A stretch of DNA of 32,116 bases from Candidatus Gastranaerophilales bacterium (lineage in GTDB: Bacteria > Cyanobacteriota > Vampirovibrionia > Gastranaerophilales > Gastranaerophilaceae), in NCBI GenBank assembly GCA_944324185.1, contig CALUVI010000024.1, positions 1 through 32,116 of the forward strand, read 5' to 3'. Made by a program: the position numbers and the translations under genes. Shown here piece after piece: positions 13,618-15,141 of this stretch (position 1 is its first letter; each line of letters starts with the position of its first letter). Below the pieces are notes generated by a model. The model saw only the letters and a list, made by a program, of their open reading frames with translations. It searched no databases and was not told where the DNA came from.

Positions 13618-13890
13618 TTATTCCGCTGATTTTTTGCGCATGCACATTATTCCGGTTACAATTCCTGCCCCGCTTCCGATAAGCCCGTTTACTGCAAGCG
13701 AGTTTTTCATCGGTGATTTTGAAAACTGTAATTTTCTTGAAACCAGATCCAGAGCAACGCCAAATCCGAACCATGCTCCGGCTGTAGTTAACCCGTCTTT
13801 CATCGGATTAACTTTTTTAGCTGCAGCCGGTCTTGAATTTGCCGCCCGGAAATAAATCGCAGATTTATGTTGTATATTTTGTATTCGCAT
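13618..13890 (-). CDS. Small membrane protein with N-terminal F-R-A motif
   Basis: A 90-aa protein of unknown function. Residues 1-18 (MRIQNIQHKSAIYFRAAN) carry the aromatic-basic-small motif also found in other proteins here. Two hydrophobic, Gly-rich segments follow (about 34-50 and 66-82), ending in a basic tail MRKKSAE. The layout (short N-terminal motif, polar linker, small-residue-rich membrane helix) matches that of the 122-aa protein at 19848. It converges with the secreted protein ending at 13613. No clear ribosome binding site is seen. Confidence 0.55.
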   Translation of the reverse strand: MRIQNIQHKSAIYFRAANSRPAAAKKVNPMKDGLTTAGAWFGFGVALDLVSRKLQFSKSPMKNSLAVNGLIGSGAGIVTGIMCMRKKSAE

Positions 13891-13910
13891 AGTGTAAATA
13901 TTTTCTCATT

Positions 13911-13936
13911 AAAAAATACCCGATAATTCAGGTATT
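13911..13936 (-). terminator. Terminator after tRNA-Leu
   Basis: On the minus strand AATACC and GGTATT arms (13931-13936 and 13915-13920) are followed by TTTTTT. It lies 14 nt downstream of the tRNA 3' end. Confidence 0.75.
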
Positions 13937-13949
13937 TTATATAAAAATT

Positions 13950-14033
13950 TGCCGATGGCCGGGGTCGAACCGGCACGTAGTTGCCTACACCAGATTTTGA
14001 GTCTGGCACGTCTACCAATTCCATCACATCGGC
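13950..14033 (-). tRNA. tRNA-Leu (anticodon CAA)
   Basis: An 84-nt class II tRNA. The acceptor stem GCCGATG pairs with CATCGGC, plus discriminator A at 13950. The anticodon stem CCAGA/TCTGG encloses loop CTCAAAA, giving anticodon CAA (reads UUG). A long variable arm (TGTAGGCAACTACG) and a T-arm with GGTTCGACCC follow. The 3' CCA is not encoded. Partial copies of its 5' part lie just upstream at 14050-14212, and a terminator follows downstream. Confidence 0.95.
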
Positions 14034-14212
14034 ATATTTAGTTTTCAATTTTTATGATTATTGTTCTGTGATGGAATTGGTCTCATATCTATAAACGCTA
14101 GAATTATTACCAACTACATCACCCGTACAATCTGCCTCAATAATACTTCTCTGCGTAATTTATTGTCAATCTACCCGCTCTGGCATCACATCGGCATATT
14201 TAGTTTTCAATT
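14022..14212. repeat. tRNA-Leu-derived direct and inverted repeats
   Basis: A 29-bp segment covering the first 12 tRNA bases plus upstream flank (14022-14050) recurs exactly at 14184-14212. In addition TGTGATGGAATTGGT at 14067-14081 is an exact inverted copy of tRNA bases at 14014-14028, and ACCAACTACATCAC at 14109-14122 is a 12/14 copy in tRNA orientation. The rest of the 310-bp gap up to 14343 has no gene. This looks like duplication and inversion of the tRNA 5' end. No integrase is present. Confidence 0.75.
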
Positions 14213-14343
14213 GACGACCTATCCGGAACTCAGCCGGTAAAAGCAATTGCCCTTCTGAATTATTGCCTCAAACCAAATTAAAACAAAAACAAAATTAAAT
14301 TTCAAGAGTAGTTTATGCTAAAATACTTATCGGAGGTCTTAAA

Positions 14344-15141
14344 GTGGCAGCGTATAACGTACTTATTATAGGAGATGAAAATGCCCGATCGCTCCGGATG
14401 GTTCTTAACTCTAAATATCTGAAAAAATTGTATACAAATTTTGAGTATTGTAATACTGCTGATATTCATTTTAATACATTTACGGAACTTGCTCAAAAAT
14501 GCAAATCCCTTAAAATTGATATTGTTCTGGTTGAAGATAAAAAGCTCATACTGCAGGGAATTGCAGAGGTTTTGAGAAAAAATTTTGTTAACTGCATAGG
14601 AGTCAGTGCAAAATGGACAAATCTTGTTCTTTCTAATAAATTTGCAAGAGAAATGAAAGAAAAATACGGAATTAATTTCCCTGAAAAATTCCTCTACCCT
14701 AAAGAATTTCCCCTTATAGTGAAGGCAGACGGGGTTATCCGAAAAGCAAACTCGCTTGAAGAAGTTATACAAATTAAGCGGAAAATCTTTGAATATTCTC
14801 CGGAAATCGCTAAATCCGTTTTTCTTGAAAAATTTATATACGGGGAAAAGTATACTCTAACGTCGCTTTATGACGGAAAAACCCTTGCAACTCTTCCGGC
14901 TGAAGAGCTGGATAAAGAATTAATTATTGACTATAACAATAAACTGTATTCAATGTTTAAGGGTGAAAATGCCGATTTTATCGGATATATAAATTCCGAA
15001 GTTATCCTTTCAAATAATAAAATATACAATACCGGCTTCAATTTTGATTTCCCGAAATTGAATGCCGATATTCTGTTTATTTTAAATTCAATGATTTATC
15101 AAAAGCTGGATGAAATTGATTTATTCATTAGAATCTTCTAA
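14344..15141 (+). CDS. Degenerate PurD-like (phosphoribosylamine-glycine ligase) ATP-grasp protein
   Basis: A 265-aa protein starting at GTG, with CGGAGG 8 nt upstream. Its order of segments follows PurD: a Rossmann-like N-terminus NVLIIGDENARS (PurD has GGREHA here), KIDIVLVEDKKLILQGI (like VGPExPLxxGI), SNKFAREMKEKYGI, FPLIVKADG and FLEKFIYGEKYTLTSLYDGK. It lacks the GKGV phosphate loop (reads VIRKAN after KADG) and the GPNTGGMG segment, and ends ~150 residues before a normal PurD. It is therefore probably not a working ligase; a regulatory or repurposed paralogue or a decaying gene are both possible. It overlaps the convergent neighbour by 21 nt. Confidence 0.65.
   Translation: MAAYNVLIIGDENARSLRMVLNSKYLKKLYTNFEYCNTADIHFNTFTELAQKCKSLKIDIVLVEDKKLILQGIAEVLRKNFVNCIGVSAKWTNLVLSNKFAREMKEKYGINFPEKFLYPKEFPLIVKADGVIRKANSLEEVIQIKRKIFEYSPEIAKSVFLEKFIYGEKYTLTSLYDGKTLATLPAEELDKELIIDYNNKLYSMFKGENADFIGYINSEVILSNNKIYNTGFNFDFPKLNADILFILNSMIYQKLDEIDLFIRIF

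Follow-up and report, generated by a model that had tools for sequence, protein, structure and literature searches.

The tRNA-Leu(CAA) gene of a Candidatus Gastranaerophilales bacterium is preceded by a 162-bp unit that carries both a copy of the start of the tRNA and an exact complement of part of it, and units of the same design recur in front of other tRNA genes. We tentatively assign this unit to a family of leaders that precede tRNA genes in Candidatus Gastranaerophilales and would act in cis as an attenuator-like folding switch on the pre-tRNA, a reading to which we give somewhat less than an even chance. The anatomy, the frequent co-occurrence of copy and antisense, the tandem repetition of units, the covariation with the tRNA and the absence of the leaders from the sampled genomes outside the order are all read from sequence; what we infer is that the leader may serve as a switch or brake. 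Below, 'the window' denotes the whole stretch of DNA that was analysed (32,116 nucleotides, contig CALUVI010000024.1).

Anatomy of the unit at tRNA-Leu(CAA)

On the tRNA strand a predicted promoter is followed by an AT-rich motif joined to tRNA bases 1–12, by a core and by an imperfect sense stretch, and further 3′ by the antisense of bases 6–20, the AT-rich motif and the tRNA (Table 1). The repeated 29-nt block is made up of the AT-rich motif AATTGAAAACTAAATA, which we take to be boxA-like, and the tRNA start. An earlier note on this DNA had described a duplicated 29-bp block holding the first 12 bases of the tRNA and, between the two copies, an exact antisense of tRNA bases 6–20. Both descriptions are borne out: the block is a perfect direct repeat (14022–14050 and 14184–14212, start-to-start spacing 162) that includes bases 1–12 when G1 is placed at 14033, and the antisense forms a perfect 15-nt inverted pair (14014–14028 and 14067–14081), which corresponds to bases 7–21 in ARAGORN numbering and to bases 6–20 with G1 at 14033. 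The second sense stretch, the motif-plus-start composition of the repeat, the recurrence at other tRNA genes, the tandem arrays and an upstream copy that takes the 3′ acceptor strand in many folds are features beyond that note.

Table 1. Features of the tRNA-Leu(CAA) locus, in positions of the window
Feature	Position	Strand	Basis
tRNA-Leu(CAA) gene	13949..14034	-	ARAGORN; Rfam RF00005, 52.7 bits
AT-rich motif AATTGAAAACTAAATA, downstream copy, directly before the tRNA	14035..14050	-	part of 29-nt repeat
Whole 162-bp repeat unit	14051..14212	-	repeat search; comparison with relatives
Antisense stretch, exact complement of tRNA bases 6–20	14067..14081	-	repeat search; covariation across loci
Variable core of the unit	14082..14183	-	by-eye comparison with relatives
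Imperfect sense stretch GTGATGTAGTTGGT, able to pair with the antisense within the leader	14109..14122	-	near match; fold of leader
Upstream copy of tRNA bases 1–12	14184..14195	-	repeat search; kept in relatives
Upstream copy of the AT-rich, presumably boxA-like motif, with the T preceding the tRNA start	14196..14212	-	repeat search
Predicted promoter (TTGAAA-17-TTTAAT, -10 preceded by TG) on the 5′ side of the entire unit	14277..14305	-	by eye

The Rfam tRNA match in the window spans 13950–14033 on the minus strand, and the tRNA-Leu(CAA) locus is a single match in its genome, with the sole CAA tRNA found there in the tRNA census. The locus scores 15 for the antisense and 13 for the copy (in ARAGORN numbering, the copy beginning one base before G1). 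By way of a chance control, an antisense score of 10 was reached in 2 and an 11-nt copy in 0 of 1180 shuffled leaders derived from 236 loci. The variable core includes a GCG...AGATA-type loop between the sense stretch and the antisense, and when the window leader is folded without most of the tRNA, GTGATGTAGTTGGT is predicted to pair with the antisense; this fold is no more stable than those of shuffled sequences (z -0.76). Unit length ranges from about 90 to 165 bp across the gathered loci. Among leader-bearing loci, 53 of 68 have a loose form of the AT-rich motif at most 60 nt from the tRNA, versus 21 of 115 leaderless loci of the order, 0 of 30 loci of an outgroup genome and 1 of 115 control windows. 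At four loci (L003, L009, L028 and L033) a T-arm-like sequence of the GGTTCGAGCGCGAGTGAGCGGAGGCTGGA kind recurs just downstream of tRNA-Leu.

Distribution of the leaders

The locus search covered 57 genomes, the window's own and 56 relatives. Five relatives (L002–L006) match the unit along the greater part or the whole of its length with 78–82% identity, one of them (L005, genome G020) carrying two units in tandem, and a further locus at a contig start (L029) likewise has the unit. Many relatives of the same genus possess the tRNA after a promoter with only a short leader. The leader is patchy within the genus, and therefore dispensable. The earlier note had made much depend on whether close relatives share the arrangement; it is not absent from them, though patchy, and several genomes have the same layout. 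At another tRNA-Leu(CAA) locus (L039/L310, G038:C1:184300-186800) a 182-nt unit with a 14-nt copy and the repeated motif lacks an antisense, and its core appears unlike other unit cores.

A strict Leu pattern, the antisense followed by the start of tRNA-Leu, was scanned in 84,980 species genomes and returned 52 stretches, of which 32 are titled Candidatus Gastranaerophilales, two Melainabacteria and one each Adamsella, Galligastranaerophilus and Butyricicoccus, the other 15 bearing no taxon name. The Butyricicoccus stretch (L068) was rejected as a chance match; by eye its antisense overlaps a promoter, and a copy was not found. In an order-wide sample the Leu pattern occurs in 41 of 383 genomes and 12 of 52 genera, and the reversed control pattern has 0 matches in the same 383 genomes. 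A second pattern, designed for tRNAs with the common D-arm, occurs in 45 of these genomes and 11 genera, which brings the two patterns combined to 21 of 52 genera (a count from two listings). In a phylum-wide sample the second pattern was found in 18 of 386 genomes, all of them inside the order and none among the 213 genomes outside it. Viral contigs gave 0 matches with either pattern.

Within the window's genome, a copy of at least 11 nt stands before 10 of 35 tRNA genes, and in nine of these it is accompanied by an antisense scoring at least 10 (the census required at least 60 nt of upstream sequence; the genes number 37 without that limit). These nine are Val-TAC, Met, Phe, Gly-TCC, Lys-CTT, Ala-GGC, Pro-TGG, Leu-GAG and Leu-CAA; Asp has the copy only, and the antisense scores of the remaining 25 genes do not exceed 7. 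The tRNA-Leu(GAG) locus of this genome (L167, G000:C37) has two tandem units. Genome G098, from another genus, has a copy or an antisense at 14 of 42 tRNA genes, with both parts at eight (Thr-CGT, Val-TAC, Lys-CTT, Gly-TCC, Met, Arg-ACG, Trp and Pro-CGG), the copy alone at five and the antisense alone at one. Either part occurs at 4 of 37 tRNA genes of G310 (both at 2), and a leader at 1 of the 33 tRNAs examined out of 43 in G044 (Leu-TAG), where a Thr-TGT antisense with a score of 10 at a distance of 149 nt was left uncounted. No leader was found at the 30 tRNAs examined (of 42) in G056, a genome outside the order.

Of the 348 unique loci that offer 60 nt or more of upstream sequence, both parts are present at 106, neither at 209, the copy alone at 15 and the antisense alone at 18 (some of these last being cut by a contig or stretch end), and either part was found at 19 isoacceptors. 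This set is enriched in leaders because many loci were gathered through the pattern, which does not apply to the per-genome censuses. The 15 copy-only loci include five of the 14 in G098, the Asp locus of the window's genome and four Val loci of same-genus genomes (L242, L244, L247 and L249), in which 15-nt copies of the tRNA start lie 52–107 nt upstream without an antisense; perhaps these four are remnants of units.

Tandem arrays and the island at tRNA-Val

At least two exact 11-nt copies lie upstream of the tRNA in 32 of 125 antisense-positive loci, with up to four at one locus. In the arrays that were compared the units are mostly near-identical and the antisense is kept. In the Phe array of L350 (G292:C8:47900-49000) three units are alike and one is of another type, the antisense of the odd unit covering tRNA bases 7–21 and that of the others bases 13–29. 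Flanks of some carriers match those of non-carriers, upstream at L002 and L005 and downstream at L001, L005 and L006, so that a single position on the chromosome seems to gain and lose units. Related cores are also found at different tRNAs of one genome.

An island of approximately 28 kb with a Phage_integrase gene lies inside the tRNA-Val leader of G007 (L313/L314, G007:C7:3300-32200). Among the ten island proteins scanned are a glycosyltransferase, an SLBB export protein and a Wzy_C-like protein just below the cut-off. A tRNA copy plus core of about 44 bp is present at both ends of the island, and its right end bears a promoter-like sequence, identified by eye, that faces the tRNA. Searches of the relatives with the Val and Gly leaders placed leader fragments away from a tRNA, contig ends aside, only at this island junction among the matches listed. 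No integrase or recombinase was found among the ten window proteins scanned.

Two further observations concern neighbouring sequence. A tRNA-Val leader locus with at least 1215 identical upstream bases stands on two contigs of one genome (G318:C6 and G318:C16; L345 and L346), which is either a duplication or an assembly artefact. Fragments of the tRNA 3′ half occur away from the tRNA gene at G000:C3:44337-44382, G011:C3:515-559 and G013:C77:20813-20857, and these are probably attachment sites of ordinary integrated elements.

Fit of copy and antisense to their own tRNA

Typically a unit repeats the first 11–19 bases of its tRNA and has, 19–60 nt before the gene, an antisense of the D-arm region; in 105 of the 106 loci with both parts the antisense ends 19–45 nt before the tRNA. 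The copy ends at position 12–14 in most Leu and Phe loci and at 18–19 in Val and Gly. When leaders are paired with the tRNA of another amino acid, the antisense matches in 68 and the copy in 65 of 2832 combinations (236 loci), probably owing to shared D-arm sequence.

The covariation test was applied to loci with an antisense score of at least 10 and a recognisable D-arm anchor, 51 of them Leu and 63 for other tRNAs; the score threshold builds some pairing into the test, though not at any given position. Across the Leu loci, bases 8–20 are each paired in a fraction of 0.98–1.00 and base 7 in 0.96, and pairing drops sharply to 0.22 just beyond base 20. At the three clearly variable Leu positions permutation lowers the pairing to 0.81, 0.83 and 0.76, the observed value being reached in 0 of 200 permutations, and in the loci of other tRNAs base 25 is paired in 0.95 versus 0.71 after permutation (maximum 0.81). 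The antisense of Arg-ACG even contains the complement of the extra D-loop base of that tRNA. In Leu, Gly and Val, 14 of the 19 non-Watson–Crick positions are G.U, which fits selection on RNA pairing, some of these changes being common to related genomes and hence representing fewer than 19 independent events. On the alignments compared, the antisense covaries with its own tRNA across isoacceptors and genera.

Substitutions in the acceptor part of the copy preserve the pair in six cases and break it in eight, with no clear rule of pair preservation. The identity of 71 copies with the real 5′ strand (14 positions differ among the remaining scored cases) suggests homogenisation, and copy and motif look homogenised by recombination.

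Predicted promoters and probable transcription of the leader

The predicted promoter that we favour, at 14305–14277, is missing from the consensus scan because the scan demands an A at position 2 of the -10 element; in relatives that lack the unit, a comparable element (by eye) immediately precedes the tRNA. A promoter-like site lies no more than 110 nt upstream of the first copy in 44 of 74 loci versus 17.6 in shuffles, leaving 30 without a match, and such sites precede 66 of 115 leaderless tRNAs versus 31.9 shuffled. The interval from copy to antisense has one in 5 of 99 loci versus 2.8. Inside the window's unit the scan gives an 11-of-12 match at 14169–14140, from which a transcript would keep the antisense and lose the copy. 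The earlier note had envisaged a promoter that excludes the antisense from the transcript; the window does contain one match of this kind, a weak 9-of-12 at 14086–14057, but such sites are not enriched between antisense and tRNA (6 of 99 loci versus 4.8 shuffled). A consensus scan of 13800–14400 found no terminator-like site within the window leader, its one site (14398–14384) lying outside. On these predictions the leader is probably transcribed.

Computed folding of the precursors

The folding model treats the RNA as unmodified and leaves out proteins and tertiary contacts, and 52 of 171 leaderless tRNAs misfold under the same method. Pairing of antisense with tRNA was computed for 68 loci, and copy capture and energies for 63 loci each. 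In folds from the copy onwards the predicted mean probability of antisense:tRNA pairing is 0.98 for 38 Leu, 0.96 for 17 Gly and 0.98 for seven Val loci. If the folded sequence begins with the copy, the predicted partner of the 3′ acceptor strand is this upstream copy, at probabilities of 0.96, 0.94 and 0.82 (36 Leu, 15 Gly and 6 Val loci), and not the real 5′ strand (0.00). With up to 40 nt of extra upstream sequence, the native acceptor stem exceeds a probability of 0.5 in 0 of 90 leader-bearing precursors versus 119 of the 171 leaderless tRNAs folded with 150 nt upstream; the 90 were taken from the 106 loci with both parts, omitting those in which the copy does not start at base 1 or lies more than 175 nt from the tRNA. 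In this extended context the copy holds the 3′ strand (probability above 0.5) in 56 of the 90, the window's locus being among the 34 that lose it. Within the folding method, the predicted loss of the native fold is robust, while the hold of the copy on the 3′ strand depends on the sequence context.

Folding leader and tRNA jointly yields a predicted gain of 13.0 kcal/mol with the tRNA's own leader, 1.5 with a foreign and 2.4 with a shuffled one, and the gain falls to 5.5 when the antisense and to 11.0 when the copy is masked (63 loci). In the leader alone, the antisense is paired internally at a probability of 0.72. In growing transcripts the antisense:tRNA helix has a mean probability of 0.58–0.95 once 22 nt of tRNA have been made and of 0.96–0.98 at 30 nt; with capture predicted this early, a default-off state is therefore hard to reconcile with growth. 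The earlier note had suggested that the antisense competes with tRNA folding, and had wavered between decay after an insertion and inversion and a control element. Because the predicted pairing dominates (0.96–0.98) and promoters are enriched upstream of the unit, competition and control stand as hypotheses. Simple decay is unlikely: relatives share the arrangement, there is covariation with the tRNA, and copy or antisense is found at 19 isoacceptors.

A possible folding switch and its rivals

We propose that the nascent tRNA may adopt either of two folds that rule each other out. In one, the captured fold, the 5′ third of the tRNA would be bound by the antisense and its 3′ acceptor strand could be taken by the upstream copy, whereby the native acceptor stem, which RNase P needs, would be lost; in the free fold the sense stretches of the leader would keep the antisense and the tRNA would fold normally. 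The leader would then serve the cell as a switch or brake that governs tRNA maturation in cis, much as an attenuator does, its strength set by the length of the antisense and perhaps by the number of units. A factor bound to the AT-rich motif between antisense and tRNA, possibly NusB/S10, might favour the free fold, which is a guess. A cis-acting RNA switch, attenuator-like in its logic, is the simplest account of anatomy, covariation and position. Its main weakness is the escape of functional tRNA from capture: some tRNAs detected a single time in their genome carry the leader, for instance Trp in G098 and Phe in the genome of the window, some of them being the sole tRNA found for their amino acid, and a permanently captured precursor would therefore be lethal. 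Further points against it are the small energy cost of masking the copy (11.0 versus 13.0 kcal/mol), the substitutions in the copy (six preserving and eight breaking the pair), the homogenised look of copy and motif, the copy-only loci, the patchy presence within the genus, the early predicted capture and the 30 of 74 loci that lack an upstream promoter match. An intron reading, in which the copy and the downstream tRNA are spliced together, was also considered; the captured fold does resemble a tRNA with an insertion, but this reading is not favoured because the ends of the copy vary.

The strongest rival, unlikely in our estimation, is a DNA-level element: small repeats, mobile or derived from an integrase, would insert themselves at the 5′ ends of tRNA genes and multiply there in tandem while playing no part in tRNA expression, the antisense being an inverted recombinase site or a product of template switching. 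The tandem arrays, with two unit types mixed at Phe, the patchy presence at seemingly the same chromosomal site, the related cores at different tRNAs of one genome and the integrase island within the Val leader all agree with such an element. Yet the antisense follows the sequence of each tRNA and a moving element would have to rewrite it for every target, the substitutions tend to keep G.U pairs (14 of 19), none of the ten window proteins scanned is an integrase, a single island was seen, and its junction is the sole leader fragment off a tRNA among the matches listed. The reading as a mobile repeat is compatible with the switch. A neutral relic, produced by recurrent slippage and inversion where tRNA genes begin and maintained through recombination without function, we hold to be quite improbable: copies mostly identical to the real 5′ strand are what homogenising recombination would give, and the copy-only loci (15 of 348) and the patchy presence suit it too, but covariation over genera, the occurrence of either part at 19 isoacceptors, the fixed geometry (105 of 106 loci) and the confinement to one order in the samples searched argue against it.

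Two readings grant the RNA another task. The leader might briefly hold the 5′ part of the tRNA during transcription and release it once the 3′ part emerges, a folding-helper role similar to that proposed for rRNA leaders. The antisense is indeed complementary to the part of the tRNA that is made first, the predicted pairing arises at 22–30 nt of tRNA and a putatively boxA-like motif stands between antisense and tRNA; given that the helix is predicted to be the most stable state at full length, by about 13 kcal/mol, the handover would need help, and 25 of the 35 tRNA genes of the same genome do without a leader, so that we think this role very doubtful. Least probable to our minds is that RNase P releases the leader as an anti-tRNA or sponge RNA acting in trans, like rtT or external transcribed spacers. 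Such an RNA would find a poor target in the mature folded tRNA, its antisense fits its own downstream tRNA best, which favours action in cis, and the window's leader, the one scanned, has no terminator-like site. In its favour are the enrichment of promoter-like sites before leaders and the precedent of the RtT family, described as an RNA that is liberated from the transcripts of tRNA operons and influences the stringent response (PMC4986893).

Comparison with known systems

At gathering thresholds Rfam finds only the tRNA in the window. With E values up to 1, the region 13900–14330 additionally gives snoZ196, TCL6_2, mir-2329 and isrF, and six other leader loci give two miRNA matches besides the tRNA; all lie far below the cut-offs and are read as chance. 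Neither the RtT model nor the T-box model has a match in the window at gathering thresholds, or in its leader and the six leader loci at E values up to 1.

The nearest known case is rtT of the E. coli tRNA operons. The repeats of the tyrT operon are likewise tandem, adjoin the tRNA, contain a piece of it and are part of the same transcript; they carry the tRNA 3′ end and lie downstream of the tRNA, whereas the units here carry the 5′ end, lie upstream and have an antisense in addition. Attenuators of the trp type work by exclusive 1:2, 2:3 and 3:4 pairings. The leaders resemble them in their mutually exclusive predicted pairings, within the leader (0.72) or with the tRNA (0.96–0.98), and differ in that the regulated product would be the tRNA itself rather than a terminator or reading frame, the window leader having no terminator-like hairpin. 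T-boxes, which reside in mRNA leaders and bind tRNA in trans via its anticodon and 3′ end, are also leader RNAs whose fold concerns a tRNA; they differ in acting in trans from an mRNA and, as stated, their Rfam model has no match here. Integron cassette arrays consist of small tandem units whose attC sites have inverted repeats. The likeness lies in tandem arrays of small inverted-repeat units, one array having two unit types; in contrast, the units described here are about 90–165 bp without an obvious gene, and sit at tRNA 5′ ends carrying a copy of that very tRNA.

The AT-rich TTGAAAACTAAATA in front of an RNA gene resembles what we take to be the non-proteobacterial form of boxA, the NusB/S10 site of rRNA leaders. 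The AT-rich motif has no match around the Ile and Ala tRNAs in four loci of G044 and G056. TTGAAAACTAAATA does not match the consensus GYTCTTTAANA, given as the gamma-proteobacterial boxA (PMC5725501). A search of the open-access literature yielded no description that we recognised as being of such tRNA leaders.

Significance

tRNA genes are usually thought to be controlled at the promoter and by processing enzymes. If our reading is right, leaders holding a copy as well as a complement of their own tRNA would set tRNA supply in a new manner, and the reach of this possible control is indicated by the 10 of 35 and 14 of 42 tRNA genes with a copy or an antisense in two genomes. In its broader form the idea, which we hold to be possible and a little less probable than the switch itself, is one of lineage-wide self-mimicking tRNA leaders, in which a precursor swaps its real 5′ part for the copy and ends as a dead-end pseudo-tRNA, several tRNAs being placed under a common tunable switch with the number of units as a possible setting. 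Should the unit prove to be a mobile repeat, this repeat would fit every tRNA at which it sits, which would be equally unusual. Misfolding seems to be built in here, and the leaders may therefore offer a handle on how cells keep tRNA precursors from misfolding.
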